From Branchiostoma floridae (Eukaryota; Chordata; Leptocardii; Amphioxiformes; Branchiostomatidae): a DNA stretch of 64,000 nt. The notes under the pieces are model-generated. The model ran no database searches and was not told where the DNA came from. It saw only the letters and a list, made by a program, of their open reading frames with translations. Both the position numbers and the translations under genes were made by a program. Numbering within the stretch: position 1 is the stretch's first letter; each line of letters begins with the position of its first letter. Shown here one piece after another: positions 42,545 to 63,720 of this stretch. Location of the stretch: NCBI RefSeq assembly GCF_000003815.2, contig NC_049992.1:17099780-17163779 (forward strand), in the 5' to 3' direction.

Positions 42545-42789
42545 TTACAGCTCATCCTTGGTCTTTGCGTCTTGTCCGTAGTCGTAAACGTACTGGTGTT
42601 CCGCCGTGATCCGAGGCGTGGCCACGACTGGCCCCTTGGTCTCGTACGTCCACACCACGCGGCCGGTCTCACGGTCCACGCAGAAGACGGGACCGCTGAT
42701 GGAGCCGATGTACACGCGGCCGTGTTTGTCCAACCTCGGGCTGGACCAGACCTCCTCGCCCGCGGGAAACTTCCACACAATGGCGCCGT
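42545..42789 (-). CDS. Gene C exon m: last propeller blades, KDEL and stop
   Basis: The exon contains IVWKFPAGEEVWSSPRLDKH, GRVYIGSISGPVFCVDRETG and RVVWTYETKGPVVATP, then YDYGQDAKTKDEL and TAA. The acceptor is TTGTTTCCAG. It is much more GC-rich than the flanking introns. A 4.9-kb repeat-rich intron separates it from exon l. Confidence 0.93.
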
Positions 42790-45700
42790 CTGGAAACAAA
42801 AAAGGTCACATTTAAAAACATTTTAAAGTAATTTTTGTAGAATTTTTTTTAGAAATTTTTTCCAAACTTTTTTAGAAATTTTTTCTTTCAAAAATTTTTA
42901 TATTTCAGCCATACATAGTATGGTGAAATATATTGTATTCGTAATGTTTCTTTCTTCTTTCTTTCTTTCTTTCTCCTGTCAAATCTTCAAAGTGATTCAT
43001 CTCCGCCGTTCCTGGACCGAATGACCTGAAATTTGGCACAGGGGTAGAATGGGCCAATCCTTGATGCCTTTTTCTCAGTTTTTTCATATCTGCCTCTAAA
43101 ATGATTTTATTGAGATTTTTTGGTCAATTTTAGACCAAAACTGTATATTTTGGCCCCTGTACCCTGGTATTACAACCAAATGAGCTGAAATTTGACAGAG
43201 ATGTGCCTTGATAATGCCCCCATATAAATTCGATAACACTTTTGGTGTACAGTACAACAAAATGCTTATTTTTGCGATTTTTTGACCAATTTTTGACCAA
43301 AAAAGGACACTTTTGGCCCCTGTACCCTGGTATTACAACCAAATGAGCTGAAATTTGACAGAGATGTGCCTTGATAATGCCCCCATATAAATTCAATAAC
43401 ACTTTTGGTGTACAGTACAACAAAATGCTTATTTTTGCGATTTTTTGACCAATTTTTGACCAAAAAAGGACACTTTTGGCCCCTGTACCCTGGTATTACA
43501 ACCAAATGAGCTGAAATTTGACAGAGATGTGCCTTGATAATGCCCCCATATAAATTCAATAACACTTTTGGTGTACAGTACAACAAAATGCTTATTTTTG
43601 CGATTTTTTTACCAATTTTTGACCAAAAAAGGACACTTTTGGCTCCTGTACCTTGGTATTGCAACCGAATGAGCTGAAATTTGACACAGATGTGCCTTGA
43701 TAATCCCTTCATATAAATTCAATAACACTTTTGGTGTACAGTGCAACAAAATGCTTATTTTTGCGATTTTTGGCCAATTTTTGACCAAAAAAAGGACACT
43801 TTTGGCTCCTGTACCCTGGTATTACAATTAAATGACCTGAAATTTGGTATAGATAGGCATTAGATACTTAGTAACAAGATTCAAGTAAAATTTTTGACAT
43901 AAACAACTTTAAGATGATTAATTTTGGCACTTTTCTGAGGGGAAATTTGTTTTCTTTTGGCCTCCTGACGTGACCTTCCGTGACCCCGCACAGAGCCACA
44001 CCTGTGCGCGTCAGCCGGAGAGTTAATTGAATCAAAGACCTAGCCAATCAGCGAAGAGGAATTTGGCAAATGATCAACGCATCATCTTCTCCAGTTACAT
44101 GTTGCTGTTACAGCTTACCTTTGCCACTTCTTCTGTGTAAATTATTTTGTCTCTCTGGTCCTGCTAAAAACATAATATCGTAATTGGAACACACCGCGGA
44201 ATTGCACGGAGAACGGGCGAGTGGTTGGAAGGGGGTGCACTATACCGGCCGAACGAAACACGGCACAATTAACTGCCGCTGTGTACCTTTATACATCCTC
44301 TGTTGTTCCTTTCTTTCCTGTTAGTAGTTGCACAAAACAAAAATCTGCATGAGCATACAAAAAGTCATGAGAAAATGGGCGTATACTGACAAGAATTTTC
44401 ATTTAATTTTGGTCCGTCATAACCGCTATGACGTAAAACTTTACTGCTGGCCGTAGCATTAAAAATGGCGGGAAAATGGCGGCGTACGTTCAATTTGACC
44501 CATTCAGTCATAGATCCGGGCTATAATGCAACGGTTCCTCACACTTTTGCACGAGTTGTAGGTCACCAAAAGAAATTCAAGATTGCTGTTGAATCATGCT
44601 CGTCTTGTGCCGTGAGCACATGTGATTATTATCTACAAATCTGGCAATGAACGTGACAGTGTGTTTGTCCCACGACGAGCTCGCCTGCCCCGAAAATGAC
44701 CTGAAAACTTTTGGCCTTGTTGTCTTCGAATGCATTGTTATCGATGCTTTGTAAATTATGTATTGGACACCTAGATGTCTGAAGTGTGCATACCTCAGAA
44801 ATAACTATTGTTGCATGTGTAGATCTCTTTAAGTTCCACTATTTTTAATCGACCGGTATAAGGCTTATGACCGGTATTATGCCAATGCATGTTATCAGTT
44901 CTTTGGGGCATATCTATGATAATCCCAGCAGTCACTTAACTTCTCTTCAGGAGTTTAGCGTAACACTATTTCAGGTCAAACCGTCAAAGGCAACTAAAAA
45001 CAAACTTTAACGTTACTGAGTTCAACAGTACTTATAACTTGTTATCCGAAGTTGAAACGCTAGCGATGGTATTTTCGCTGCGCTGTTAGCTCCGTGCGAC
45101 TGTTGTTGACGGTCTTATAACGGTATATTTTGCACCCCTGTACCCTGGTATGAGTAACATTTGGTATAGATAGGCATAAGATAGTTGGTAAAATGATCCA
45201 AGTAAAATTTTTGGCATAAAGTACTGTAAAAGGCTTAATTACAGCACTTTTTTTAGGGGAAATTGGTTTTCTTTCGTTCTCCATGCCATGACCTTTCGGA
45301 CGTTCACCCCACAGAGCCGACATCTGCACCTGCGTCTAGCCGGCAGGAAGAGTTAATTCAATTAATGGTTCCGCCAATCAGCGAAGAGGAAAGCGAAGGC
45401 TAATTAATATTCATAAGCGGGACCACACAATACGTTAACTTGAAGACTCAGGCCGTACAGACTTCTTGCCAGGATTTTTTCAAAGCGTCGGACAGGGGTC
45501 CGGGGGCCGCCTGGCGGGGTCCAAGGGCAGGGCCACTGTGGGGGGGACCCAGGTGGGCGAAGCCCCCCCGGAAGCTCTTGCATTTTAGACTATTGAGAAG
45601 GCTTCTTTTATCAGTTTTTTTAGGGCCATATCTACGATAATCGTAGCAGTCACTTACTTCTCTTCAGCAGTTTGACTTTAAAATATTTCGGGTCAAAGCT

Positions 45701-48700
45701 TCAAAGACAACTAAAACCTCATAAACAACAAACTTTACTTAGCTCAACAGTATACAAAAATATTGTACGGGTTGCCATCCTTAGTTGAAGCGCTTATTTA
45801 TAGCGCTAGTATCTTCGCTGCGCCGTTAGCCGCCGTGCGACTTTTGTTGACGGTCTGATATCCCTACGTCGCCGCCTCGCTGATATTCCCACGGACATGT
45901 TTCAAGAAAAATACCCAGCAAAAAAACGCTGTTCTGCGTCAAATTCTATTCTATAAAACATGTGGGACTCAGTGTTACAGTCTAAATATTTTGTAGAAGC
46001 ACCGCTGTAGGAAAGAAGGTCCAAGCAATGTAAAACATCACGTAGCATGAAGTTCGCTGTCAACTGGCACACAGCACATGACTGTTTGAAACTCTAAGTC
46101 TAATCAACAGCCGTGTTTGATTGATAGCCGGCGGTCCTTTGATGAAGTCGGCGAAAGGTGCGTTAGTTAGAAAATCTGCGTTTAGTTTTGATACGTAATT
46201 ATAAGTTAGACAGTGGCGAGAATGATTATTTTCTCATCAATATTTCTCTTCAGAATTATTTGAACTTAATTGTACATCTAAACAATTGGCTTACCTGTGC
46301 AATGTTTATATGATTAATGATCAGTGTACTGAAATCATGTGTAACGTATGGCTCCTAGTCAATAGATCAGCATTTTCTCTATAGTGACCACCTGTCTATA
46401 GTGGCCACATTTCCTAGTGCTGTTGTTGTTTGACATAAACTTTGAACATTTAAATTGTAAGTAACTTTAAACTGCCAGAGTTTCAGCCCAATAAAACACT
46501 CTCAGCGCCAGGGTATGAACAGACTGACCAGACAGACGAAAATAAATCCTCGAACAAGGTTCAATCGTATCTTCCGGGTCTGGCAGGAAGTTGTTAAACT
46601 AAAATAAGAATAGGCTCGATGGCTGATTGCATACAAAGTAAAACAGTTTAACAGTTTTACAGCTTGAAGAAAACAAACGCTCCTACAGTACCTGCACCTG
46701 CTTGATAATTATTAAATCGTATGCCCTACTTGAATAAAAAAAGTTCACTGCAATAATAAATGTACCCACATCACAAGGAGCTTATACTTTTTTAAACTTA
46801 CACCTAGTTATCGTACTGAAAATTGTTAATGACATTACATGAAGTCATTCAACAATTTTCAGTCATGATGAAAATTTTCTGAATGGAAGGTGTGATTATT
46901 GTCATTTTCTGAAAAATAGAAGCAAGCTCTGTTTTTACCTGGAATCAATTCACAATACCAGTCCACTTTGGGGGATAATGTACTGTTAAGAGGATGTTCC
47001 ATTTTTGCGCAGGGGTGATTTGGAACAGTCCAATGTTGCGTGGGAAGGGGTATGGCTGAAATATGCTGTATTTGCTCTTAAGCAAATGTCGGCCTTTCTA
47101 GTTTTAGAAATTTTTTTATAGAAATTTTTTCCAAACTTTTTAAGAACCTTTTTTTAGAAATTTTTTACAAATTTTTTTAGAAATCTAAAGAAAAGAAAAA
47201 TTTTAGAAATCTTTTTTTAATCATTTTCACAGAGTGCAGTGCATTTTACAGATAAATTACAAGGCGCCATTCATCACTGTAATGCGCCCAACATCAGAAC
47301 ATTATTCTACAACGAACCTGATTGTAACTATCAAATTGAATGTAACATTGCTGGCAAATGGAGACCAGTACTGTAACATGCGTTTGTACATTTTGGATTC
47401 TTGCTTTGTGCTTACACAACATGTTTGAATACTAGCAAATGTATTTCAAGACTGCATTGAATGAATGTAGGGAGGGCAGTCATTATTTCAAATTTATTGA
47501 CTATGGACGAACCTGACCAATGAGTCCCAAACGCTTGTGATTATGTGAAGTTTTGATTTGCAAACCAAGTTCATATATTTCCAATTGCAACACACTGATA
47601 TTGCTTTGGGCTACTTAAACGTCCTGTCAAGTGTTCTAACCTACCCCAATCAGTAATTTTACACCACAATGTGTGTAGTTGCATGATAAATGTTGGCATT
47701 CAAAAAAGAGTAGAATAACTGTATGATGGCTGACCTTTCTGTTTCAGTTTGAGCAGCTGACCATCACCAGACCCGATGTACAGGAACCCATCGTTGTCCA
47801 GGGCTGGGGAAGACTGCATTTCCCCTCCCAGTACCTTCTCCCATTTCAGTTTCCCTCGTCTGATGTCCACAGCAAGCACTGACCCTCCAACCGTGGCTGT
47901 GCATGGGGAAAAGCAGTACACCAATTAAGAATAAATACTAGTAGTTTCATCAGGTTGATGACACAAAGCAGTGCCACAGAGTAGCAAGAAGCTAGTTTGT
48001 CCCTGACAGTGATAATAATCACTAACCAATAACGAAGTATGGCTACTTCTCCAAAGGTTGAAGGTTCAGCACTTTTCATTATGAACCTTGAGGAAGGTAC
48101 AATATGGACAACCAAAGCAGGGCTCAAAAAGTATTTTGGGAATACAGTCATAGGTACACTGGTGATTCTGACCATAAATTTATGAGCACAGAAAACATTA
48201 TTGTGTCCACCTTAAGCTTAAGATTATGTGTTAAGCACCAAGGACAGGTGTGCTTTCCTGTGTTTGGATGGCATTCTGCACAAAGGACAGGTGTGTCTGC
48301 CTGTGTCTGGATGGTGTTCAGCACCAAGGACAGGTGTGTTTGCCTGTGCTTGGATGGTGTTCAGCACCAAGGACAGGTGTGCTTTCCTGTGTTTGGATGG
48401 CATTCTGCACAAAGGACAGGTGTGTTTGCCTGTGTCTGGATGGTGTTCAGCACCAAGGACAGGTGTGTTTGCCTGTGTCTGGATGGTGTTCAGCACCAAG
48501 GACAGGTGTGCTTTCCTGTGTTTGGATGGCATTCCGCACAAAGGACAGGTGTGTTTGCCTGTGTCTGGATGGTGTTCAGCACCAAGGACAGGTGTGTTTG
48601 CCTGTGCTTGGATGGTGTTCAGCACCAAGGACAGGTGTGTTTGCCTGTGCTTGGATGGTGTTCAGCACCAAGGACAGGTGTGTTTGCCTGTGCTTGGATG

Positions 48701-51700
48701 GTGTTCAGCACCAAGGACAGGTGTGTTTGCCTGAGCTTGGAAGGAGTTCAGCAACCCAAAGCAACTTACAGTTTTGAAAAATATATGAATATCTACATGT
48801 ACCAGTGCACTTACTTCACAGTATTTCAAGGCAAGTTAAGTGGCAAGTCATTGTCTCTTATTTTTTTTCACATAACCTAATGTATGTTTCTGAAAATGAG
48901 GGATAAAATGATGGAATGCGCTTAGAAGTAATCATTTCCCCAACTATACTCCTTTATTTATAGCCCTGTAGTACACTGGTTCCAATAGACGTCATGCTGT
49001 ATTTCCTAGTTGTATAGTGGCATTAAAGAATGGTCGGGACAAACAGTACACCAGCTAGAAACCTTGGCCAAAGATAGACGAAGATGGAAGACTTATGTGC
49101 TTACTTGTGTGTGGATGGTGCTCATTACCAAGGACAGGTGTGTTCACCTGTGTGTGGACCATTTTCAACATTAGGGACAGAGTTGTTTATATATGTGTAT
49201 GTGAATGGTGTTCAAAACCAAGGAAAACATGTTTGCTTGTGTGGCTAGTGTTTAGCACTAGGAACAGCTGTTTGTGTGTGTTTGTGTGTGTATGGATGGT
49301 GTTCAGCACCAATGACAGGTGTGTTTGCCTGTGTATTGACTTTGTTCAACACCAAGTCATTGTCTCTTATTTTTTTTCACATAACCTAATGTATGTTTCT
49401 GAAAATGAGGGATAAAATGATGGAATGCGCTTAGAAGTAATCATTTCCCCAACTATACTGCTTTATTTATAGCCCTGTAGTACACTGGTTCCAATAGACG
49501 TCATGCTGTATTTCCTAGTTGTATAGTGGCATTAAAGAATGGTCGGGACAAACAGTACACCAGCTAGAAACCTTGGCCAAAGATAGACGAAGATGGAAGA
49601 CTTATGTTGATGGCATTGCTGCCCCTACGGCCGATGAGGCTATGGGACCGGTGAGGTGATAGTGGCAAGCAGTACGAAAAAAAATACAGGAACCTTTCAA
49701 TAAACCCACCTACAAACAGCGTTCCGTCCTTGTTGATGACTGGAGTAGAGTCGATCCCGTCGTGGTCCTCTCCGACGTCAAACTTCCTGACAAGACTGCC
49801 ACTGTCGGCGCGCAGGGTGTAGATGTGGGAGTCCCGCGAACTGAAGTACACGTACCGGCCGTCCCGGCTCAGGACTGGGGCGGCCCAGATCGGACCAGCT
49901 GCTTTGAAGGACCAGGCAGGAGTCCCTGTGTAACAGATGTGGAAAAGATGTTACCCTTGCAAAAACTGTTCCATATTGACACTATATTTAGACATCATCA
50001 TCTTCTGGGTGGACCAGATTGGACTGGGTGCTTTGAAGGACAAGACTTAGCGAAACAGGAAAAGAAAGGGAACAAAGAATATGTATATGTCTGCAACAAT
50101 GGAAGGGAGTAGCCTCTTTTGCAGCCTTCTAGGAGCACTGGCTGGGCTGGGGTGGGGGGCGCTGCTTTGCAATCTTAAAATGTGGGCAAGGTTCTTCTAT
50201 AGAAACTCTCATATGTTGACTCAGTGGATCAGCACTCCCAAAAAACATATGCCAGTGCTCCTACAGAAGACTGTGAAGAAGGCTAAGGAGGGCTATGGCA
50301 CATAGACTATCTGCTGCCTACCTCAGGGCAGTAATGTGCCTTATGTCATACCTGTGACGCAGAAACGTTCGAAACGGGTGTTCCGGACTGGGCCATAACT
50401 TCCGTATCAGACCAGTTCGAAAGGCGTATCACACAGGCTCCATTCGAATAAATCAAACTGTTTCGAGCGGGCCGAGTGCGGCGCCATCGAATGTTCAAAT
50501 ACCTGATTCAGACGTTGGAACATTACTGTTGCAACACTTTTTGTTCGAGGGCACCAAATTTGATCAACTTCTGGCGCATTTCGCATCAAAACAGGGGTTT
50601 TCTTACTAGGTGGGTATGACATAAATAAAATACAACACGGTGTATTCTGCATCACCCCTCGTTCCCAGCCCTCCCGCGGGTCGGATTACCCTCCGGCCTT
50701 CAGCCGTCTGGCGATCTGACCCGCGGTCGGGCTGATACCTCGGGTGATACAGAATACACCGTGTTGTATTCTATATTTACCAGTCTGTGTATCCAGCGCA
50801 AAGGCGTTAAAGTTGGTCTCCGCCAAAACTCCAACGTACACCAGCCGACCGTCATGTCCGATGGCAAGGCCTATCCAGATCTCTCCACCCAGATCGCGTG
50901 ACCACTTCACCGCCCCGTCCGGCGTGAAGGCGTACATCATGCTATCCAGGGTGCCGATGTAGACCGTGCCATCAGCGCCGACCAAGGGGGAACATGTAAC
51001 GGAGACACCTACAACAGACACAGTAGAAGGCATAGGTCAGTATCACACTTTTACATGAACAGGCCTTTTTTAGCTATAAGAAATATTGTACTTGGATCCA
51101 CAAGAAATAACATCAACTCACGCAATTCCACCCAGTGCTATAATACTGCAAAATGGAAAAATTATGTGCATTTGAAAGAATTTGGAAAGATGTACAAAAT
51201 GTAATGCAGCATCAGTTATCTTGACGTTATTTCACACACTTCAGACATTTTGGTGTTCAAGACAATCTTGAGAAGGCCTCTATAACAATGCCTTTATGTG
51301 GCGGTATTATGGCACCTGGAGGAATCATGAGAGTTGATGTTAACTATAAAGTGAAAAAATCTCAATTTCAGCAGTTCTTGCAACCATAAGAGATAGCTTT
51401 GTCCCTACTTTAGACCTACCAAAGTAAAGTAAGCATTACATTTAGTAGTGTGAATTCCAATGATTCTGCAAAAAGTGCACAAGTAGTGGACAGTTTTTTC
51501 AGCCTAATCACAAACCTGTTTTGTATCTCCATACAACGTGACCATCTTTCACACGTAAGGCATTGACATGACCGTCCTCCGTTCCAAAGTACACCACAGA
51601 CTGATCAGGGCTGAAGGCAGGAGACGACCCGAGATCTTCCTCTGGAAGGGATAGGAGAAATGTAAGAAATGTCATTTCTTTGTGCTATCGCTTTTATCAA

Positions 51701-54700
51701 TTTGTATCATCAATTATTGCTGCTGACTTCAGTACCAAGGACAGGTCCATTTGCGTCAGCATTGCATTCAGGACCAGCTGCAGATTTATTTTCTTGTGTC
51801 TGTATGTCATTAAGTAGGATTTTTATCCGTGGATGGTTTTCAGCACCAAGGACAGGTGCGCTTACCTGTGAGTGGATGGTGTCCAGCACCATGGATAAAT
51901 TTGTTTATCTATGTGTATGGATGGTGTTCAGGACCAATGACAGATTTGTTTACCTATGTGTATGGATGGTGTTCAGCACCAAGGACAGGTGTGTTTGCCT
52001 GTGTATTGACCTTGTTCAACACCAAGGACATGTACTTGTGTGTTGATGGTGTGCAGCACCAGGGACAGGTGTGTTTACTTGTGTGTGGATGGTGTTCATT
52101 ACCAAGGATAGGTATGTTCACCTGTGATTGGACAATTTTCAACATTAGGGACAGAGTTGTTTATATATGTGTATGTGGATGGTGTTCAAAACCAAGGAAA
52201 ACACGTTTGCTTGTGTGGCTAGTGTTTAGCACTAGGAACAGCTGTTTGTGTGTGTTTGTGTGTGTAGTGTATTGCTGGTGTTCAACACCAATGACAGGTG
52301 TGTTTGCCTGTGTATTGACTTTGTTCAACAATTTTACTCATGTGTTGATGGTGTTCAAGGAAAATATGTTTGCTTGTGTGGCTAGTGTTCAGCACTAGGA
52401 ACAGCTGTTTGTGTGTGTTTGGTATTCATTCTGTTTGTCCATGTACATGTATGTAAAAGGGCATTGAGTACCACTGCCATCAACATTGTCTTTAATTCAT
52501 TTTCACTAACCTGTAGTAAATGTCCACTTGACTTTTCCTGTCTCCCCATCCAAGGCATACATCTTGCCATCATCAGAACCAATGAAAATTGTCTCATCTT
52601 CCAAATTCACCGGCTCGAATAACTTTGTCCTCTTCTGATCTTCATTGTCCTTTTGCACTTGGACATCTTCTTGTTGGTCGTCATCAGCACTTCCTACGAT
52701 CCTGTTCCACTCTTCGTCATCTGTATATATTGAAGGTACTCCATCCTCGTCAATCTTGGCCGGTTTGATCTTTTCGTCTATGACACGGACACTGAGCTCG
52801 TTCAGTTCCATTTGGAGCACCTTAAGGTTGCTCAGAAGATGCTTCTCTTTAACCGACTTTGGGATGATGACGACACCCTTTTGCATGGCCCATCGCAGGA
52901 CAATGTTGGCCACAGGGATGTCCAAGATTTTGGAAAGTTTCGCCAAAATGGGACTTGTCAAGACAGGGTTCTTCGCCCGTTCCACGATCTTCTTCCTAAA
53001 CATCCAGTCCGTCCACATGCCACCCAGTGTGCTGTATCCCTGGTACACCATGCCGTGCTTTTCGCAGAACTCTCTCGTGGCCTCGTCGCGATAGAAAGGG
53101 TCAAACCAGTTCTGTACGACGGACACGGGTACCTCCGCCGTTGCCAGCAGCTTCTCCAAGTGTTTGGGGTAGAAGTTGCTGACTCCGAGGCTGCGAACTT
53201 TGCCCTCGTTGTGGAGCTCCTCCATGGCCTTCCAGGTCTCTTCCCATGATGCTTTGGGTTCATCCGGGGCACACTTAAAGTGGGGATCGCTGCAGTCTTG
53301 ATCGTGGATCAAGAGTAGGTCGATGTAGTCCATACCAAGTTTCTCAAGGGACTCCTGGACCGAGTCGAGCGTCAGGTCGTGGCCAAAAAACCTTGGGGAG
53401 ACCTTAGTGACGAGGAAGATGTCTTCTCGTGGGATGCCCGAGTCCTTAACGGCCCGACCAACCTCTTCTTCTGAGTGATAGCGATAGTACGACTGTGCTG
53501 TGTCAATCATTCTACAAAATAGGAAAAACAATAAAAAAAGTTAACGAAGGAACCTTGATTTAATCCAAAGGATAAAATTTTGAGTTACAGGCATAAAAAG
53601 TCATCATGTGATGCTTGTAACGTCGACTCTCATAGTTCTGACGGATAACTGATTAAAACATCATTAAAAAAGTTGGTTTTCTTAAAAAAACCTGAAACAC
53701 CTGCCACAGATATCTGCAGTGCCCATACCTTGGGAATTACTGAAGCCACACGAGTAAGGTCTTTGTAATTCACCGTTTTCACAAACTTGTCCTAGCTTTT
53801 AGAGTACCTAGCAAGGTCAACATCACATGTAGCAGATGTTAATGACCTATTGAGACTCATCTAAGCATCCTATAGGAATATTTCTGATACAGCACATCAT
53901 TAATAATTACATTCATGTCATACCTGTGACGCGAAAACGTTCGATACGGGTGTTCCGGACCGGCTGATAACTTTCCGTACGGCCTGGGTTTATCACACGG
54001 GCTCCATTCGAATAAATCGACCTGTTTCGAGTGGGCCGAGTACGGCACCATTGAAAGTTCGAATACCTGATTCGGACGTTGGAACATTACTGTTGCAACG
54101 CTTTTTTTTCGAGGGCAACAAATTTGTTCAACTTCTGGCGCATTTCGCATCAAAACAGTGGTTTTCTCAGGTGGGTATGACATAAATAAAATACAACACG
54201 GTGTATTCCGTATCACTCGAGGTACCAGCCCGACCGCGGGTCGGATCGCACGACGGCCAAGGTACATTCTATATGTATCTTGCCAATATATAAAGGATAT
54301 ACTGTTACAACCTGACTCCATGGTAGCAAGATTTTAGATGATTTTTAGATGACAACTTAACCCTTCAATCATACACCAGCCCCTCCTCCTCTTATGGTTT
54401 TGATTGACAGCTTACCTATATCCAGCTTTCAGTGCAAACAGCACCAGATCATATGTCTTATCCATCATCCCAGCTGTTCCGAGGCCAAAGACTGGAACTG
54501 CAAGAAAATTGATAGTACAATGTATCAATATTTTCTTTTATTCCATTCATCATTTTGTACTTCTGGTGATATCAGAAATTTGCCAAAAGCAATTCCTTAA
54601 ACTAACAATAAACATGTAAAATAGAAACAGATACAATCATAAAGGAAAATGACTTTCTCTGAATGCTGTACAGAATTTAGTATTTTGCATCTACTGCAAT

Positions 54701-57700
54701 GAACTTGAAAGAAACTTACATTGAATCTATTAATTGTTTAAAATTTAACTTAAATTTACAGATAAAGGAGACTCTTCTTTTTCTACAATATTTGAACAAG
54801 GCCAAAGATGATATTTTTGTACAGTTTTGTACCAATTATATTTTTGCACATGCAACATACTTGTGTGTCCACTTGGCATCCTGAAATCTGGGATATGAAC
54901 TTCAGGTTGTTGCTCTACATTTCCCATGAGTCTGTTCACCGTAGCATCGTCTAAGATTGGCTCCCCGTCTTCGTCAATCTCCACGGGAACGGCGTCTTCA
55001 TCGATCCAATCCATGAGGTGGTCGCTCAGGTCCATCTCCAGAATATTCAAGTTGTTCATGATGTGTTTTTCATTCACAGCCTTGGGGATCACCACCACGT
55101 CCTTCTGTATGGCCCAGCGTAGAACAATATTGGGTATTGAAAAATCCAACGGCACTGCAATTCTATGGAACACGTAATGCGAAAGAACGGGGTTGACCAT
55201 GGAAGGGTCGTCAATCATTTCCGCCCACCGCGTTCCCAGCGTACTGTACCCCTGGTAGACGATGCCACGCTGACGACAGAAATCCCTCGTTGCCTCGTCG
55301 CGGTAGAACGGGTCGAACCAGTTCTGTACCAGCGAGACAGGCACCTCCGCCATGGACATCAGCTTGTTCAGATGTTTGGGGTAGAAGTTGCTGACTCCAA
55401 GGCTCCGTATCTTCCCCTCTCTGTGGAGCTCTTCCATGGCCTTCCAGCTCTCTTCCCAAGACGCCGTCGGATTATCCTTGGGGCATTCGAAGGAATCGTC
55501 ATCACCATCTTCATCAGCCTCCTCCATACAGTCTGGCGAGTGGATCAGAAAAAGGTCGATGTACTCGGTGCCGAGTTTGTCAAGAGACACGTCGACGGAC
55601 TTCTTGGTCGAACTGAAGCCGAAGAACTTTGGAGCCAGTTTGGTGATGATGAAGATGTCTTCCCGGGGGACGCCCGAATCCTTGATGGCTCGGCCGATAG
55701 ATTCCTCGGAGTAACGGTAGGACTGCGCTGTGTCGATCATCCTGTACAGATGGAAAACGTAAATGTCAAGGAAAGATTTCTCCTCATCCCTCCTTCGAGC
55801 CAAGCAACATTAAATCAAATGACCCACCCATCAATCAATCAATGAACAAATCCATGGATCAATCAATCAATCATGTGGCAGCACATTGCCAAGTTTCTGT
55901 TTTATTTAATAGACCAGAACCTAGAGGTCTAGGGTTCAAATTCCCTGACAAGACCCAGTGTTGAGCTCTTGGGAAAGGCACTTCACACAAATTTCCACAC
56001 GTCACTCACGGAACGGTGAAAATGGCCAACCCAACTTTGTTTAGAGATGTTTCTCAGATAGGACATCAAATGGAGGACCTTGTTTGAGGAGAGCCACACC
56101 TCCAGCACATAAAAGAAGCCAAACTTGATAGTCTCTTCATCATTAATTTTCTTGAGTGTTATTTCTTAGAAACATTTGTCCAATCAAGGAGGTCTTTATC
56201 AAACCTGCTTGGTGCCATGGTATACAGTAGTTTGAATGAAGAAAAGTAATTGATCAAAGTTATCTTAGCATAATCTGTCAAAGAAAGGTAATTTTGGAAT
56301 CAGATAATATACAACAACATATATAGCAAGTCAGTTCCCATGCTGTTTCTGCAGCAGGCCTTTCTTTAATGGAGGTGTTGCTAGCCCTTCCTTTAACTTG
56401 ATTGCCTTGAGGCACCTTCTTAAATATGAAACACCCATTTTACATCCCGCCCAAAAGACCCAAGATTAAATCTTAGTCTATATTAAGTCAATAGACGAAG
56501 TTTGACTTAAGTTTAGAGACTTGATAAAAATGACTATCAACTTTTCTCTACGTCGCTCTTGCTATTTTCTTGGACAAAAAAGCCTCAAAACATGTGAAGG
56601 TCTGCTGCCATAGTGTTGGTATAATCTACTCATTTTCTAATCGGTCCAACTCCAATCCACTAGATTTCTTATTAATAATCTTAAGGTCCAATTTTTCCAG
56701 ATCGGTCCAACAAGAAAAAAATGGTTTTGTACCGGTACACCGTACCCAACTCTATTAGTAATCACTAATAAATGTGATAACCTCACCTGTAGCCAGACTT
56801 AAGTGCGAATAACACAGCATCGTATGTCTTCTGGTACATCTGTGCTGTGCCTAAACCGAGTACAGGAACTGAAAATGGAAAAAAAGAAGAAATGAATACA
56901 AAAGATATTTTGCATCATTTTAAAAATTGGACTAGTGTACAATTACACGTACAGTCAAAACTGCTCAACTGCTCAAGTGTCACAGTACAAAATCAAATTT
57001 GTGACAATCTCTGCATTAAAAAAACATGGTGTGATGTACAGAATGCATGCAGAATACACTGTATTGTGTTCTTTTCATGTCATACAAGGCCTTTATAAAC
57101 ACAGATGTGAAGTGTCCCAGAAGTGGAGAAAATTTGGCTTATCAAATGAAAATTATCTTAGACAGTGACATCAAATAGAATGTACGAATCTGGTATTCAA
57201 ATTTCTGACAATGGGGCATGTAAGGTGCGTTTCAATTATTTGATGGAAGCCAAATGGCAATTGTAATACAATTGGAAGCCCAAGCAATATGTTATTATAA
57301 TGACTGATCCAGAATGCTATCACAACCAAAGTATGGCATGAATTATGACTCTTACTAGTATATCCGCTAGGCATCTTCTTGTCCGCAATTGGTTCAACTT
57401 CCTTCATTTCACCTGTTTGGTAGCCATTAATCCAGTTTTCCTGTATTTCTTGAGGCAATGACTTTATTATCTAAAGCACAAAAAGGTAACATCATTTTTA
57501 GTACATCAAGTTTAGAATCATCATCATCATCTTTCGTCCCTGCCAGGCAGGGTTTTATAGATACAGGAAGATACAATGTACATGTTTCCCCTGACCAAAG
57601 GTGTTGCCTATTACGACCAAAAAAAGCAACTTTGACATGGAATGTTGTAAATATGATGTTTTACAAAATGAGCTACTGTAAATGCATTTAAGTTCGTGGG

Positions 57701-60700
57701 GATTTAATTTTGCGGTAGCGGGAAAAAAGGATTTCTTGCAGTTGTTTTAAGTTCGTGGCAACACCATAGACTGCAGTCTCATACCATTATAGAAAAATTG
57801 TTCGCGGTGGTTTTAAGTTCACTTCACCGCGAAAACCGCGAACATTAATCCACCACGAACATTTCTGCATTTACAGTATTCCCATTTCTTTGTTTATATA
57901 ATATTAAGACTTAGTTCATTGTAAATGTATAATAGATATCAAGAGAGTCAATACCACAGGCAGATTTGACTATAAATGAAAAATGTATCTTTAGATGAGA
58001 TTATTCTTTTAATGTAAGGCCATACCAATTTAATTTGTTGGTTCTCGGAATCGCCGCTTCTATTTTTCCCAATTTCAAAAAAAAAAAAAAAATCCATGAG
58101 GTTATTTGCATGTTCATGAGAACTCATTTGCATGTTCGTGAGAGTTACATGGCCCCATTACCTGGTACCTACAAGTTGCTGGACAAACTTCGGCTCAGTT
58201 AAACAAAACTTCTGAAACAAGTACTGGACATGCAAAAACAACTATCACCTGCTTATGTTTTCCTTTGTGTTGTAAATCATCGAAAACCACCAATAGATCG
58301 TGAAATTTGTGCTGAAAAATGACGATTCGGCAAACCAAAATGGCCGCCATGTAGCCAGTCACAAGTATGTAAATGAGATGCAATTTCATGCAAATGAGCA
58401 CGCCTCTAGCGTTTTTTGCTTAAACTGCAGCTTTCACAAAGAGAACAATGAATCAGATGTTTCAGGCACTCTTATTTTTTGGGTGAAATGAAGTCATTTT
58501 CTTGTTGCTAACATACATTAGACATTATACTATGCTAAAAAAGTTTTTCAACCTTTTTAAAAGTTTTTTAATGTTATTAATGATTTACTATGATGATTTA
58601 TTACAACTGTTAAGCTTTATTACTGTGTGTACTTCTGTAATACTGCACATTATTTTGCATTTGTATTGTTGAAATTAAATATAAAATGTATGCTTACATG
58701 CAAATTTTTCATGTAATTGTAACTGGATAAGTATTCTGCCACACATATACCATGGTTTCAGGTCTGGAATTACCAACCTGAAACTCTGGACCTGAATCCA
58801 GACTTGTTGCAGGTTTTTTTTTTTTTTTTTTTTCGCCCTGTCGCTCCAACTTTTTTCTGAAAAAATCCGAGAACCAACAAATTAAATTGGTATGGCCTAA
58901 GCATAAAAAGCAATAAAACCTATATTGTATTTTGTTAGTTGTATTGCTTGTCTGAAAATTTTGAATTTATTGCACAATTAATTGTACAATTATGACATTG
59001 TGCTGAATTATGTACTCACTGTTTAGGATTTTGTAGATAGCTAGAGAATTTTAGATTAGTTCTGAACAGAGACAGATACTTTTTTTCTGTATCTTTCCTT
59101 CAACGTAGAATAAATGGAAAGTTTTGAGTTATTTTGGATAGAAGAATGCCATTCTTGTATGTACAGTCAAACCTGTCTATAGCGGCCACTCAAGGGACTG
59201 GAGAAATATGGCCACTATAGAAAGGTGGCTACTACTAATAGAGAAAATGTTGATCAATTGACCATGAGCAAGCTACACATGATTTCAGTTCCCACCAATC
59301 TTTCTCACCAAGTAACATTGTCTCGATCGGTAAATTCACCGACAAAGACTTGCACTTTAATGCTCAAGGCATGCATACCTTCTGCTACCGCCAAAATGAC
59401 CCTGCGGGGAACTCCAAATCCTCGCAAACTACAATTTCAAACTCGGTGCAGGGTGACATAAGGCTGCAGTTAATGGTTGCAATAGGCAGTGTTTCTGTAT
59501 CTACGGGACCGGAAATCGTGAATCCGTGGCCGCGTTGGACAGGCTAAGCCTATTTCTTAATCATTACAAATGTGTTAGGGACCGACAAAAAGTGGCCACT
59601 ATGGCCAGGTGGCTGCTATGCAATTTAGGTGGCCGCTAATACAGGTGTGACTGTATATCCTGTAAATGCAGTCATAAATGGTCGGTTAGCATATATTACA
59701 TGTACCTCACTCAATGTCTCAGGAAGACCTTGTGAACAGTGGATCTCTTCTGGTTCCTCCTTCACACACCGTAAGAATACCTCCGTGCTCTCGGCAATCA
59801 TCAGATCGGGGTCGACCTCTTCCTCAACTCTATCATTACATTCGCTAAATTGTTGAAACCAAATGCTGAAGGCAATGTTGGGGTCTCCCTCTGACCGTAC
59901 CTTAAAAAAAAGAATAGAACCTGAAGTGAATTTCAAAGTGATCTCAAGTCAGCTCACTCAAAAGCTACTCAGGTCGTGACAGAGAAAACAGATGCTACAG
60001 TTTTGTTTTAATAGCCAGATTTACATAATATTAACTCTTTTTGACCTAAGGACATTATGAAGAGTGGGCCTAAATGGCTTAACGTCCTGGCCAAAGGACT
60101 GCGACCCTTGCCTGGCTGACAGTACCGCAAGTGAGAACAGCCTTGATTCAAACTCATGGCTTCATAGTCCAGAGGCACTGACCACCGGACTAGACACGCT
60201 ACCTTCAAACAATGTGATCACGTTATCATCATCATAGAGAAATCAGCTAAGTAGACCAATTACAAGACTATATGATATAATTTATTAGCTAAGGGCACAA
60301 CCCACCGTACATGCAAATACGTGCTGCCTACATGCCAAAATGTGGGCAGTCTTTTGGGATCCGTAAGTAGTAAGTACCGCCTCCGTACGAACTCGTAGGG
60401 AATCCGATGGATTTTGGAGCACACAGACATGCCGTAGAACTTAACGTGCAGGCAAAACTTTATGTGCCATCGGGCTGCGGATTCGCCTCCCCCCCCCCCG
60501 TACGTGTCAGTACCGGCAACGCGCCTGCCCTGTACAGTCTGAAGGTTTTCAGAAATACGTGGTGGACGTAGCCTCTCAAAAAAATGTACGGACAAATTGC
60601 ACGTACGGCGGGTTGTGCCCTTAGCTTGATTGGGTTAAATCTCATGGTGCTCTTTGGTGTGACAAATTAGCAGTGGGTTTTGATGTTATATGTACAGGAA

Positions 60701-63038
60701 TCAGGCCTCCCAAATAGCTAAGATATAATGCTACAATGTAAGAGTCCTTTCAGAATCTGTGATGTCATGACCCCTTCTACGTTTTTCCCACCGAAGTGTA
60801 CACAGCAGACATTTGATATAAAGAAATTTAAGATGTTTTCAAAAAAAGAGACAAACTTTTTACATGGACGATTGTCCACGGGGTAACCTACATCCATTGT
60901 TAAGTCGATGGACGTTGGTTTTAAACTGCAGCATATTGAAAATATTGCATTAGTGAAAACCTGACTGTCCATTGGCTTGATAATTAACGTTAGTTCACCT
61001 TTATCCGCCTTTAACCTATATCCGTTGTGTTGCTAAACAGGATATCCAGGGATATTAAATCGATGGACAGTAGTTTCAAATTGTACTATTTTCAAGATAT
61101 TGCCATTCGGAACCATCATCTGTCGACTTGATATCCCTGGATACATTGTGCTTAAAAAGAATGGATAAAGGTTACCCTGCGGATAAAGGTGAACTAGCGT
61201 TACCTAAACACACCCGTTTTAAAAATAACATCTGATATACAATTGTAGGTTACCCCACAAATAAAGTTGTACTAGGGTGAGAGGAAGTTTTATTTCATTA
61301 CCTGGTGATACCAAAATTGTGGAACAAATAACATGTCCCCTGCTTCCAGCTCAGCAATGGTATAGTCCACCTCAGCGACAAGTGGGAACCTGACCAGGTC
61401 AATCTCTTCTGGGTCCAGCGGTGCTAAACCTGATGTCATAGAACATTGAAGGAACTTTGTGACGAAAATCTTATCTGGCGCTCTCGCGAAGCTCTGTCGT
61501 ACAGTAGACACCAATGCTTTTTCTTGTTTATCTTGTTTTGCTTCCTCACAGAAAATTTATCGTAGAAAAATGTGCTTGTCCATGGGTTTTAAAGAAAAAA
61601 TGAGATTTGTTTTCTTGTATTTCCAAAAATGCTTTTCTTGTTTATCTTGTTTGGCTTCCTCACAGAAAATTTATCTTCCAGGAAGAAAAAAAATCTTGTA
61701 TTTCTTATGAGTTGAATCTGGTTAGAAAAAAAACAAGATTTTCTAGAATTTTTTTCTATAAGAAAAAATAAGAAGATTTTGCTTAACTGTCTAGAAGATT
61801 TTTGAAGTTTCTCGTTTTGCTTGAATTTTATTCTCAATTTTCTTCCTGCAAGAATATTTGTCTTCATACAAGAATTGACCATGGGGTAAGCAAAATAAGA
61901 AAAAATCATTTTTGGTAGTGTACTGGAACACTTTTCTAGTGTGCTTTGGTGTTTTTGCCTTTCCTTAATTGTGCTTTAATTAAGATTACCCAAGGAAAAT
62001 AAAATAAATGTATGTTCCAATGAGTAGTTACACTGCAAAATTTTACTTTCCATTGCTATCCTCTCTAGAGCCACTGAAATGCGTGACCATAAGAAATAGG
62101 ACACCTGACAAAACATGATTTACTTTTCTGTCTAAGATAATGTTACAATAATTTGAAATGGATCAATGACGTTGAAAAGGTTAGGGAAGGGTGCCCTTAA
62201 TAGAATATACTTTGTGACACTCGTGACAATTTGTTTTTAAATTACCCTTGCCAATCGCAAAGTTTGTTAGCAGTAAAATGTTTTAACGCCCTTCACTACC
62301 AAAAATGATTTTTTTTTGTGTATCTTGTTTTTCTTCCTCACAGAAAATTTATCTTCCAAGAAGAAAATTATTCTGTCCCCAAGAAATCTTAGCAAATGGT
62401 GCTTATCCATGGGGCAAGCAAATTTTTGCTTGAATTTTGTAGACATTTTTGAGATTAATATTCTTACACGAAGAATACTTTTCTTACATCAAGAGCAGAA
62501 ATTCTTGTATTTCTTAAGAGTTATAAAAAAGCAAGCATTTCTAGAATCTTTTTCTTGCATCATAAGAAAAAACAAGAAGATTTTGCTTAAAGTTCTTAGG
62601 TGTGAGAAACATTTTCTTTACCAAAGAAGAATAAGAAAATTGTTCTTTGCGTGAGAATTAAGATTTTTTGGTAGATTCTTGTTTTGCTTAGAATTTTATT
62701 CTACATTTTCTTCTTGCAAGAACATTTTTTTCATATAAGAATTGTCCATTGGGTAAGCAAAACAAGCAAAAATCATTTATGGTAGTGTTCATAAAATAAT
62801 CTCACTGATAGCCCTTGTAAGCGTTTCCCTACTGGCACCTCAGTGAATAGCACCAGAGCCTCATGAACATACCTGGCAGCACGGTGAAGTCGTTCATATA
62901 CAGATGGTTGGAGAACTTGGGGTCGATGACCAGGACGGTTTTCTTCCCGGACACCAACGTCAGGATGTTGTCTACTCCGTCATGGTGGATCACGTAACTG
63001 GTGTTCCCTGAACTGTACAGCATGTTTATACCTGTCAG
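42545..63038 (-). CDS. Gene C (5' end outside window): JmjC/cupin_8 + two aldo/keto reductase domains + PQQ-type propeller, ending KDEL
   Basis: Exons on the minus strand: 63038-62873, 61429-61302, 59900-59706, 57470-57356, 56868-56787, 55741-54861, 54497-54416, 53511-52511, 51641-51516, 51008-50781, 49925-49710, 47896-47735 and 42789-42545. All junctions are GT-AG and in phase, giving 1208 visible residues. Visible residues 1 to about 120 are a JmjC/cupin_8 fold with HxD (HHD, 18-20) and distal His 97, the Fe(II) triad of 2-oxoglutarate oxygenases. Two aldo/keto reductase domains follow (about 200-480 and 523-800), each with an Asp-Tyr-Lys-His tetrad. A PQQ-like beta-propeller runs from about 855 to 1195. 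The C terminus is KDEL, so the protein should sit in the ER lumen. The signal peptide must lie upstream of the window. I know no named protein with this layout. Substrate and role are unknown. Confidence 0.92.
42548..42559 (-). other. C-terminal KDEL ER-retention signal of gene C
   Basis: The last four codons before TAA are AAG GAT GAG CTG, Lys-Asp-Glu-Leu. By established knowledge this tetrapeptide binds the KDEL receptor and returns soluble lumenal proteins to the ER. It has meaning only at an exact C terminus, which is where it lies here. Confidence 0.93.
43128..43830. repeat. 163-bp tandem repeat in gene C intron 12
   Basis: About four units of 163 bp (GACCAATTTTTGACCAAAAA, then GGACACTTTTGGCCCCTGTA, and so on). 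The middle units are nearly identical and the outer ones more diverged. Open frames across units are products of the array, since 163 is not a multiple of 3. Confidence 0.9.
43843..45860. repeat. Dispersed duplicated blocks in gene C intron 12
   Basis: Block 43843-44060 resembles 45150-45395 (ATTTGGTATAGATAGGCAT, CCAATCAGCGAAGAGGAA). Block 44860-45120 resembles 45600-45860 (CAGTCACTTA-CTTCTCTTCA, GTGCGACT-TTGTTGACGGTC). No element ends were defined. The rest of the intron to 47734 is AT-rich and unremarkable. Confidence 0.6.
47735..47896 (-). CDS. Gene C exon l: propeller blades
   Basis: The exon contains GGSVLAVDIRRGKLKWEKVL and SSPALDNDGFLYIGSGDGQL. Phase 1 at both ends, with 53 whole codons. 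The acceptor is CATGCACAG and the donor AAAG|GTCAGC. Confidence 0.9.
48234..48755. repeat. 43-bp minisatellite in gene C intron 11
   Basis: About 12 units of 43 bp, consensus containing GGTGTTCAGCACCAAGGACA and GGTGTGTTTGCCTGTGCTTG. 43 is not a multiple of 3, so all three frames carry rotating repeats and stay open for more than 130 codons on both strands. Looser relatives occur at 49100-49350 and 51730-52420. Confidence 0.93.
48844..49098. repeat. 255-bp direct repeat, copy 1
   Basis: Nearly identical to 49353-49607 at a constant offset of 509 bases, with essentially one difference seen. A very recent tandem duplication in gene C intron 11. Confidence 0.92.
49353..49607. repeat. 255-bp direct repeat, copy 2
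   Basis: The partner of 48844-49098. It ends about 100 bases from exon k (49710). Between the copies are minisatellite-like units that also resemble 52080-52330. Confidence 0.92.
49710..49925 (-). CDS. Gene C exon k: propeller blades
   Basis: The exon contains AAPVLSRDGRYVYFSSRDSH, IYTLRADSGSLVRKF and DSTPVINKDGTLFV. Phase 1 at both ends, with 71 whole codons. The acceptor is GTTACACAG and the donor GTAG|GTGGGT. Confidence 0.9.
50345..50770. mobile_element. Inverted-repeat element with terminal hairpin, copy 1
   Basis: GTCATACC at 50345 mirrors GGTATGAC at 50613-50620. The following AATACAACACGGTGTATTCT (from 50629) mirrors AGAATACACCGTGTTGTATT ending at 50770. A second copy is at 53927-54260. 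This copy ends 10 bases from exon j's donor. Confidence 0.75.
50781..51008 (-). CDS. Gene C exon j: two propeller blades
   Basis: The exon contains SPLVGADGTVYIGTLDSMMY, AFTPDGAVKW and LAIGHDGRLVYVGVLAETNF, about two blades. Phase 1 at both ends, with 75 whole codons. The donor G|GTAAAT is only about 10 bases from a 142-bp hairpin repeat (50629-50770). Confidence 0.9.
51009..51515 (-). other. Gene C intron between exons i and j
   Basis: AT-rich. TGTTCAAGACAATCTTGA at about 51250 resembles the reverse complement of 40060-40110, so a small dispersed repeat is present. Nothing else is seen. Confidence 0.5.
51516..51641 (-). CDS. Gene C exon i: PQQ-type propeller blade
   Basis: It encodes LGSSPAFSPDQSVVYFGTED and GHVNALRVKDGHVVWRYKT, a typical PQQ-like repeat (x-x-SP-x-x, VYFGT, G-x-V-x-AL, W). 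The acceptor is CCTTCCAG and the donor ACAG|GTTTGT. Phase 1 at both ends, with 41 whole codons. Confidence 0.9.
51730..52420. repeat. Degenerate 43-bp minisatellite relatives
   Basis: Repeated phrases GATGGTGTTCAGCACCAAGG and GACAGGTGTGTTTGCCTGTG occur with variable spacing. A stretch at 52080-52330 also resembles 49117-49330, showing exchange between two introns of the same gene. Confidence 0.8.
52511..53511 (-). CDS. Gene C exon h: aldo/keto reductase 2, linker and first propeller blade
   Basis: 333 whole codons. MIDTAQSYYRY, FLVTKVSPRFF and YIDLLLIHDQD give a second intact Asp-Tyr-Lys-His tetrad. The cofactor loop is VVIIPKSVKEKH. After a charged linker (SADDDQQEDVQVQKDNEDQK), the exon ends in a propeller blade, TIFIGSDDGKMYALDGETGK then VKWTFTT. 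The reductase-propeller join lies inside one exon, so the fusion is not a splicing guess. Confidence 0.95.
53927..54260. mobile_element. Inverted-repeat element, copy 2
   Basis: It runs from GTCATACCTGTGACGCG to GGTGGGTATGAC (54181) and on through AATACAACACGGTGTATTCC, matching 50345-50690. The far half of the terminal hairpin is lost. Confidence 0.75.
54416..54497 (-). CDS. Gene C exon g: start of aldo/keto reductase 2
   Basis: An 82-bp exon encoding PVFGLGTAGMMDKTYDLVLF then ALKAGY, a clear paralogue of exon e with the same length and phases. The acceptor is TCTTGCAG and the donor AG|GTAAGC. Confidence 0.9.
54861..55741 (-). CDS. Gene C exon f: body of aldo/keto reductase 1
   Basis: 293 whole codons starting RMIDTAQSYRY. 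The AKR tetrad is visible: Asp and Tyr in MIDTAQSY, Lys in FIITKLAPKFF and His in YIDLFLIHSPD. LGVSNFYPKHL, SLVQNWFDPF, YQGYSTLG and VVVIPKAVNEKH match substrate-loop and NADP(H)-binding segments of bacterial-type AKRs. An acidic tail leads to MPSGHT at the donor A|GTATGT. Confidence 0.93.
55742..56786 (-). other. Gene C intron between exons e and f
   Basis: It contains (ATCA)n at about 55835-55872, a SINE-like fragment around 55910-56010 (GGGTTCAAATTCCC) and a reverse SINE fragment at 56340-56465. The remainder is AT-rich. Confidence 0.55.
56340..56465 (-). mobile_element. SINE fragment
   Basis: GGAGGTGTTGCTAGCCCTTC, GAGGCACCTTCTTAAA and CCCATTTTACATCCC parallel 16320-16400 and, in reverse, the body of 28055-28330. 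Confidence 0.6.
56787..56868 (-). CDS. Gene C exon e: start of aldo/keto reductase 1
   Basis: An 82-bp exon encoding PVLGLGTAQMYQKTYDAVLF then ALKSGY, the first strand and helix of the AKR barrel. The acceptor is TTTTCAG and the donor AG|GTGAGG, phases 1 to 2. Length and phases are identical to exon g. Confidence 0.88.
57356..57470 (-). CDS. Gene C exon d: linker before first reductase
   Basis: It encodes IIKSLPQEIQENWINGYQTG and ADKKMPSGYT, ending at donor A|GTAAGA, phases 0 to 1, 38 whole codons. MPSGYT leads straight into IPVLGLGT of the reductase. The same junction recurs as MPSGHT before the second reductase, evidence of an internal duplication. Confidence 0.82.
57674..57878. mobile_element. 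TA-type MITE, relative of 14456-14653
   Basis: TACTGTAAATGCA and TGCATTTACAGTA are perfect terminal inverted repeats. The interior has TTCGCGGTGGTTTTAAGTTC and ACCGCGAAAACCGCGAAC. Opposite orientation to the 14.5-kb copy. Confidence 0.82.
58018..58897. mobile_element. Non-autonomous DNA element with TAA target duplication
   Basis: GGCCATACCAATTTAATTTG, then TTGGTTCTCGGA, is exactly mirrored at the right end. TAA flanks both ends (58015-58017 and 58898-58900), as in PIF/Harbinger elements. The interior of about 810 bp has poly-A and poly-T tracts near the arms and no transposase frame. Confidence 0.85.
59162..59655. mobile_element. MITE with TACAGTCA ends
   Basis: TACAGTCAAACCTGT, then TAGCGGCCAC, mirrors GTGGCCGCTAATACAGGTGT, then GACTGTA. 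Internal (G)TGGCCACTAT motifs repeat. A TA target fits a Tc1/mariner-like MITE. It ends 50 bases from exon c. Confidence 0.75.
59706..59900 (-). CDS. Gene C exon c: end of JmjC domain and acidic linker
   Basis: It continues from WYHQ into VRSEGDPNIAFSIWFQQF, the usual N-I-A/S-x-x-x-W strand after the distal histidine. An acidic region follows (CNDRVEEEVDPDLMIAESTE). The acceptor TTTTTTTTAAG ends at 59901 and the donor is GAG|GTACAT. Phase 0 at both ends, with 65 codons. Confidence 0.9.
60060..60200 (-). mobile_element. tRNA-derived fragment
   Basis: The reverse complement has GTGTCTAGTCCGGTGGTCAG, then ATGAGTTTGAATC, similar to A- and B-box order. It is degenerate and is not called a tRNA gene. 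Other parts of this intron (59901-61301) hold hairpin elements. Confidence 0.4.
60985..61202. mobile_element. Hairpin element, copy 3 (TAACGCTGGTTCACC family)
   Basis: The left end TAACGTTAGTTCACC and right end GGTGAACTAGCGTTA match 40123-40341 and 40512-40739. Broken fragments flank it (60885-60980 and 61235-61275). Confidence 0.75.
61302..61429 (-). CDS. Gene C exon b: JmjC/cupin_8 with distal histidine
   Basis: The exon encodes LAPLDPEEIDLVRFP and AGDMLFVPQFWYHQ, the typical GD-x-LF-x-P-x-x-W-x-H strand of JmjC enzymes, with the third iron ligand as the His of WYHQ. The acceptor is GACATCAG and the donor is CAG|GTAATG. Phases are 1 to 0, with 42 whole codons. Confidence 0.92.
61519..61921. 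mobile_element. Long-arm AT-rich inverted repeat, copy 1
   Basis: CTTGTTTATCTTGTTTTGCT at the left and AGCAAAATAAGAAAAAATCA, then TTTTTGGTAGTG, at the right. The sequence is dominated by TTCTTG and AAGAAA words. It is the same family as 62294-62787. Confidence 0.6.
62294..62787. mobile_element. Long-arm AT-rich inverted repeat, copy 2
   Basis: CACTACCAAAAATGATTTTT at the left mirrors AAAATCATTTATGGTAGTG at the right. It lies in the same gene C intron as copy 1, just 85 bases from exon a. Confidence 0.7.
62873..63038 (-). CDS. Gene C exon a: JmjC/cupin_8 core with HxD iron-binding motif
   Basis: The acceptor CCTCTCCCAG ends at 63039. The exon is 55 codons, starting LTGINMLYSS, with TSYVIHHDGVDNILTLVSGK and VLVIDPKF. 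HHD matches the HxD metal motif, and the Lys of SGKK is where 2-oxoglutarate is usually held. The donor is CCAG|GTATGT, phase 1. Its acceptor region is repeated many times in the array just upstream (63060-63720). This is the first exon visible, and the gene continues past the right edge. Confidence 0.9.
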
Positions 63039-63059: not shown

Positions 63060-63720
63060 TTTTAATTAATCACCTTCAAACCTTGGAGATGATAGCTGTA
63101 CAGCATGTTTATACCTGTTAGCTGGGAGAGGAAACAGCACATTATCACTTTAACCCTGTCTGCTGGGAGAGGGAACAGCACATTATCACTTTAACCCTGT
63201 CTGCTGGGAGAGGGAACAGCACATTATCACTTTAACCCTGTCTGCTGGGAGAGGGAACAGCACATTATCACTTTAACCCTGTCTGCTGGGAGAGGGAACA
63301 GCACATTATCACTTTAACCCTGTCTGCTGGGAGAGGAAACAGCACATTATCACTTTAACCCTGTCAGCTGGGATAGGGAACAGCACATTATCACTTTAAC
63401 CCTGTCTGCTGGGAGAGGGAACAGCACATTATCACTTTAACCTTAGACATGTTACCTGTACAGTATGTTTATACCTGTCAGCTGGGAGAGGGAACAGCAC
63501 ATTATCACTTTAACCCTGTCTGCTGGGATAGGGAACAGCACATTATCACTTTAACCCTGCACATGTTACCTGTACAGCATGTTTATACCTGTAAGCTGAG
63601 AGAGGGAACAGCACATTATCACTTTAACCCTGTCAGCTGGGATAGGGAACAGCACATTATCACTTTAACCCTGGACATGATAGCTGTATAGCATATAACT
63701 GTTAGCTGGGAGAGGGAACA
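63060..63720. repeat. 41-bp minisatellite made of copies of gene C exon a's 3' splice site
   Basis: About 13 units of 41 bp, GCTGGGAGAGGGAACAGCAC then ATTATCACTTTAACCCTGTC. On the minus strand each reads TGTGCTGTTCCCTCTCCCAG, the same pyrimidine tract and AG used at 63039. Four longer units (near 63095, 63450, 63570 and 63680) also copy the first 26 bases of the exon. Confidence 0.93.

Follow-up and report, generated by a model that had tools for sequence, protein, structure and literature searches.

The locus studied lies on the minus strand at 42545-63038 of a 64-kb stretch of the Branchiostoma floridae genome (C14:17099780-17163779), here called the window. Thirteen exons, a to m, run from 63038 to 42545, and all of their introns lie between GT and AG. 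Spliced together they make 3627 bases, in which the only stop is the terminal one, and they encode 1208 residues. The first-pass annotation of this DNA had proposed thirteen phase-matched exons; all were found where it had placed them and the phases agree at all 12 junctions. The splice sites were, however, picked to fit the frame, and phase match alone is weak evidence. The exons are:

62873..63038, minus strand: exon a, Cupin_8/JmjC with the Fe ligands H199-x-D201 and the 2OG-site Lys (full-length numbering); phase 0 in, 1 out
61302..61429, minus strand: exon b, JmjC with the distal Fe ligand H278; phase 1 in, 0 out
59706..59900, minus strand: exon c, end of the JmjC domain and start of the linker; phase 0 in, 0 out
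57356..57470, minus strand: exon d, hydrophilic linker and first strand of the first aldo/keto reductase (AKR1; KKMPSGYT), ending as does exon 1 of the paralogue described below
56787..56868, minus strand: exon e, AKR1 beta1-alpha1; 82 bases, like exon g and an exon of the paralogue
54861..55741, minus strand: exon f, AKR1 body (D413, Y418, K444, H477), the last part being the first strand of the second reductase (AKR2)
54416..54497, minus strand: exon g, AKR2 beta1-alpha1
52511..53511, minus strand: exon h, AKR2 body (D734, Y739, K767, H800), acidic linker and propeller blade 1
51516..51641, minus strand: exon i, propeller; phase 1-1
50781..51008, minus strand: exon j, propeller; phase 1-1
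49710..49925, minus strand: exon k, propeller; phase 1-1
47735..47896, minus strand: exon l, propeller; phase 1-1
42545..42789, minus strand: exon m, final propeller blades, KDEL and stop

The Pfam Cupin_8 match of exons a to m starts only at position 134 of the 252 in the profile, so the end of the window cuts the gene. A first exon, exon 0, is present at C14:17164330-17163788, starting 9 bases past the window end and approximately 970 bases upstream of exon a. It is an open frame of 181 codons, with its start Met behind an in-frame stop and a GTAAGG donor in phase 0, the phase in which it joins exon a, and it encodes a hydrophobic signal-like segment and the N-terminal half of the JmjC/Cupin_8 domain. 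With exon 0 the protein has 1389 residues from at least 14 coding exons, all in order on one contig of 21.8 Mb. The earlier reading of exons a to m as one protein held for the phases and the domain order, but these exons are not the whole gene: exon a opens in the middle of the JmjC domain and exon 0 is outside the window.

Several introns contain repeats. A minisatellite at 63114-63673, with 14 copies of a 41-base unit, ends 76 bases from exon a. Several of its units repeat the acceptor site of exon a together with the opening bases of that exon, which makes alternative acceptors, or errors, possible there. Minisatellites of similar 43-base units lie at 48228-48753 (intron k-l) and 51829-52198 (intron h-i), and a 163-base array is at 43098-43846 in intron l-m. 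Short N runs occur at about 16.5 kb and 22.8 kb in the window, which also carries:

32086-36059, plus strand: an NLR-like gene, with a Death-domain ORF and a 930-residue NACHT-LRR open frame
6102-11006, minus strand: an Ig-domain ORF (10446-11006), a transmembrane-like ORF (9752-10042, by eye) and an SH3 ORF (6102-6527) in line, perhaps parts of an Ig receptor whose cytoplasmic side carries an SH3 domain

Every domain named by the annotation was matched when the spliced a to m protein was searched with Pfam: Cupin_8 (E 6.7e-26), Aldo_ket_red in two stretches (E 5.6e-107) and PQQ_2 (E 2e-41). Beta-prop_ACSF4 was matched as well (E 7.1e-66), and eight propeller blade motifs follow in succession. 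Addition of exon 0 brings Cupin_8 to 121.9 bits against a Pfam cut-off of 27.4, covering profile positions 2-250 of 252; over the whole protein the two Aldo_ket_red stretches score 357.6 bits against a cut-off of 24. No second copy of any module was found inside the 64-kb window at E 0.01. The join between AKR2 and blade 1 falls within exon h (53511-52511), a single exon as annotated, and is conserved in a paralogue on C2.

The catalytic residues of the three enzyme domains, previously described as intact, are so. In alignment with JMJD5, H199, D201 and H278 (HxD...H), K214 and N205 all have their counterparts. In JmjC/Cupin_8 oxygenases HxD...H is the iron triad and the Lys binds 2OG; the domain is a predicted Fe(II)/2-oxoglutarate hydroxylase. 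The Asp-Tyr-Lys-His catalytic tetrad of AKRs is complete in both reductases (D413/Y418/K444/H477 in AKR1 and D734/Y739/K767/H800 in AKR2). At the cofactor site both keep the PK, and both, like the paralogue, have His at a position that in many AKRs is an Arg contacting the 2'-phosphate of NADPH. One of the four prokaryote AKRs aligned also has His there. In the PDB the nearest structures are TYW5 and JMJD5 for the JmjC part and the bacterial MGS-M4 and YvgN-type enzymes for the AKRs.

The description of the propeller as PQQ-type survives as the name of a fold only. The active site of PQQ-dependent dehydrogenases has adjacent Cys-Cys, while the two Cys of this propeller, 1112 and 1345, are not adjacent, and the best PF01011 stretch spans only 39-103 of 595. 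A PQQ-dependent redox propeller was thus rejected, there being no quinoprotein site. By Pfam the propeller appears nearest to that of AASDH/ACSF4; the Pfam EMC1 propeller matched below its cut-off. The best PDB matches are designed, kinase-linked and BamB-like propellers, with a weak match to IRE1 (E 8.9e-7). A genome scan with PQQ_2, in which 12 candidates were scored, gave four loci: both AKR-propeller genes, and a further pair read by eye as AASDH-like and EMC1-like.

The protein carries an address at each end. The KDEL-stop that starts at 42559 is the sole [KRHQ][DN]EL-stop in the six frames of the 64 kb, and a KDEL C-terminus is present in the paralogue too. The signal-like start, RYLVIIVSLFVAPQRCDVVA, is in exon 0 and was judged by eye. 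The ER location claimed at first from the KDEL has gained its other half outside the window. The ER address is well supported by sequence, and a soluble protein of the ER lumen is predicted. Sequons are not significantly depleted, with one seen against 3.9 expected both in this protein (P 0.09) and in the paralogue (P 0.08).

Relatives were sought in the B. floridae genome itself (513,431,437 bases in 431 contigs). Exon h has six matches there, three of them strong: exon h itself, exon f and C2:21480766-21481758, which is 63% identical across the whole of exon h, AKR-to-blade join included. The last belongs to the paralogue:

C2:21479995-21484133: eight exons, 717 residues; signal-like start, one AKR, eight blades and EDTKDEL

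Module by module the paralogue is 64-67% identical to the window gene, with which it has in common the signal-like start, the AKR, the eight-bladed propeller and the KDEL; it differs in having one AKR and no JmjC domain, and no account of its characterisation was found. Its exon 1 joins the signal-like start to the first AKR strand, and the boundaries and phases of the shared exons are equal in the two genes. This agreement lends independent support to the joins d-e, e-f, g-h and h-i-j-k-l-m, and to the KDEL. Nothing convincing as a JmjC domain is present in the 49.5 kb around the C2 gene, where the best match is of 28 residues (E 0.39). Nei-Gojobori dN is 0.30, 0.28 and 0.26 for the AKR pairs and 0.22 for the propeller, while dS is 1.88-2.18 in three of the four comparisons and saturated in the fourth. 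That dN is far below dS indicates purifying selection.

The first AKR strand (M[PA]SG[YH]T) contains the ends of exons d and f and of paralogue exon 1; exon e, exon g and their paralogue counterpart each measure 82 bases. From these shared features, AKR2 most likely arose by internal duplication with break points in linkers. The duplication may have come before or after the split from the paralogue, the AKR tree having an ultrafast bootstrap of 57.

The JmjC domain has 19 matches in the genome, five of which are the exons of the window gene itself. The best of the others, at 31-32% identity (E 1.2e-31 to 1.2e-26), are in three proteins:

C4:28.99 Mb, C3:27.46 Mb and C1:7.91 Mb: ER-retained JmjC proteins, each a single ORF with a signal-like start and an RDEL or HDEL end

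They share with the window protein the signal-like start, the Cupin_8 domain with HxD...H and an ER-retention tail, but their tails are RDEL or HDEL and their ORFs lie in one exon. The C4 protein, the only one covered by the Pfam EF-hand scan, has an EF-hand, slightly below the Pfam cut-offs, in place of the AKRs and propeller; the window protein has no EF-hand match in residues 8-376. Over residues 39-304, from just behind the signal-like segment, the window protein aligns to the profile of this family. It reaches up to 113 bits against these proteins and 71 bits, with a shorter query, against JMJD5 in the PDB. Among the sequences searched, then, the JmjC module appears closest to the RDEL/HDEL proteins of its own genome. 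Candidate further members are at C2:3.42 Mb and C14:9.05 Mb.

Both halves of the gene have free-standing relatives in the same genome that are addressed to the ER by signal-like starts and retention tails, and it seems to have arisen by fusion of two ER-resident kinds of enzyme. In the likely history, the ancestor would have been an ER-resident AKR-propeller-KDEL gene, of which the paralogue is today's representative. This would have gained its second AKR through the internal duplication and been attached, on its N-terminal side, to a signal peptide and JmjC domain from an ER-retained JmjC family.

A prokaryote or viral source was sought in collections without eukaryotes, and no AKR-propeller fusion was found among the records examined in the viral, prokaryote contig, plasmid and one-phylum scans. 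For the AKR pair the viral scan gave 44 pattern matches, none of them relatives, and for the JmjC domain no pattern match. The genome contig scan gave two Streptomyces loci at 28% identity. Among the plasmids, none of 1783 matching records covers 80% of the 717-residue paralogue at a single locus; for a 370-residue stretch with the AKR2-propeller join in its middle, none of 957 reaches that coverage. A 360-residue AKR2-plus-blade query, which is mostly AKR and linker, reaches 80% in 21 of 1929 records. The match of one Arthrobacter record looked at first as if it continued from the AKR into blade 1; the record was rejected as a plain AKR whose frame ends ahead of the propeller part. At least 163 of the 296 genomes of one phylum matched a 408-residue AKR-plus-blades query, and among the matches listed none extends past residue 311.

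Is this one gene or two? The splice from exon c to exon d, from JmjC to AKR, is the only join without independent support; we infer it from matching phases and from the complementary ER signals of the two halves. A signal-like start is present in exons 0 to c, which have no retention signal; the KDEL belongs to exons d to m, where exon d provides no signal peptide. Each half thus supplies what the other lacks. The two halves might instead be adjacent genes, one for a secreted JmjC protein (0 to c) and one for an AKR-AKR-propeller-KDEL protein (d to m) with its own start exon. The paralogue, which has its own signal-like exon right before the AKR, would be a precedent. The frame of exon c stays open for 26 codons beyond the donor before a stop, similarity to the tails of the ER JmjC proteins is absent across c-d (z 0.97, -0.09 and -1.45 for the three members compared), and the interval from c to d holds three ORFs that each open with a hydrophobic stretch and have a GT[AG] in phase. 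As alternative start exons these ORFs appear unconvincing. In exon d the frame meets a TAG at the acceptor and there is no hydrophobic stretch, which would leave exons d to m with a KDEL but no ER signal. Exons 0 to c alone would have no retention signal, unlike their relatives ending in RDEL or HDEL, and the phases of the c donor and the d acceptor agree. We consider two genes improbable. A pseudogene or assembly chimera, which introns rich in repeats, including the minisatellite near exon a, might suggest, is scarcely credible in the face of fourteen intact exons ordered along a single 21.8 Mb contig and a dN against the paralogue far under dS. One protein with the architecture JmjC-AKR-AKR-propeller-KDEL is highly probable; its domain layout is real, intact and unusual, and is built from known parts.

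What might such a protein do? We would give about even chances to the account as a whole, that of a single ER-lumen protein running from signal peptide through JmjC, AKR1, AKR2 and eight-bladed propeller to KDEL, with the history given above and the following mechanism. The propeller would serve as a platform, without catalysis of its own, on which a protein or some other partner docks. Hydroxylation, with O2, 2OG and Fe, would fall to the JmjC domain, and the AKRs would use NAD(P)H to reduce carbonyls, plausibly carbonyls made by or alongside the oxygenase. Judged from sequence, such coupling of oxygenase and AKR chemistry is a tentative proposal, somewhat short of an even chance. Its most specific form is more speculative and rather unlikely: a relay in the ER lumen, in which secretory cargo held on the propeller would be hydroxylated by the JmjC domain and a carbonyl-prone product reduced by the two AKRs in turn. 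If true, secreted proteins, or a small molecule produced in the ER, would bear an as yet undescribed modification. The suggestion in the first-pass annotation that the enzymes act in series on one substrate bound to the propeller is likewise a hypothesis. Alternatively, one protein could house AKRs that do not act on the JmjC product and that help the oxygenase or the ER instead, either by removal of reactive carbonyls or by regeneration of a co-substrate, for example ascorbate. The closest AKRs in the PDB are bacterial YvgN-type enzymes and the paralogue AKR matches models of 2,5-diketogluconate reductase (DkgA/DkgB), though far under the NCBIfam cut-offs; moreover, the AKR-propeller unit must have a function of its own, since the paralogue combines the two without any JmjC domain. 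Tandem intact AKRs and an oxygenase kept in one chain under purifying selection suggest, weakly, a closer coupling, and we regard independent AKRs as possible but not likely. Very improbable is a folding factor or sensor whose propeller binds unfolded or secretory proteins, as the IRE1 luminal domain does, with the enzymes secondary. The ER address, the weak match to the IRE1 luminal domain and the EMC1 match under the Pfam cut-off would fit. Yet three enzyme domains retain their catalytic residues. IRE1 also matches far more weakly than the BamB-like, kinase-linked and designed propellers do, and its match may be due to nothing more than the repeats. If the chain is one protein, the gene-fusion argument further predicts joint action, in this animal, of the ER JmjC proteins and the AKR-propeller-KDEL protein that exist as separate chains.

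In the one open-access library searched, nothing listed appeared relevant to a characterised protein with the JmjC-AKR-AKR-propeller-KDEL layout, consistent with the remark in the first-pass annotation that none was known, nor to ER NADPH in connection with AKRs. Each part can nevertheless be compared with known systems. JMJD5, TYW5 and JMJD7, the best PDB matches of the oxygenase, share the JmjC fold and HxD...H but have no AKR or propeller, and they are nuclear or cytosolic. YvgN, MGS-M4 and, through the paralogue, DkgA/DkgB have the AKR domain and tetrad in common with the window protein; they are single-domain enzymes, and the Arg of the cofactor site is His in the window protein. AASDH/ACSF4 and BamB have a PQQ-like propeller, and the Beta-prop_ACSF4 match is stronger still in the paralogue (E 3.2e-75). 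In AASDH, unlike the window protein, the propeller is joined to an adenylating enzyme and not to AKRs. In the ER lumen the comparison is with JMJD8, which has a signal peptide and a JmjC domain only, with His instead of the Fe-binding Asp that the window protein keeps, and an activity that its authors doubt (PMC5684140). If it is indeed one protein, the window gene would set an O2/2OG oxygenase and two NAD(P)H reductases on one scaffold in a compartment whose described JmjC protein is without the usual iron ligand (PMC5684140).
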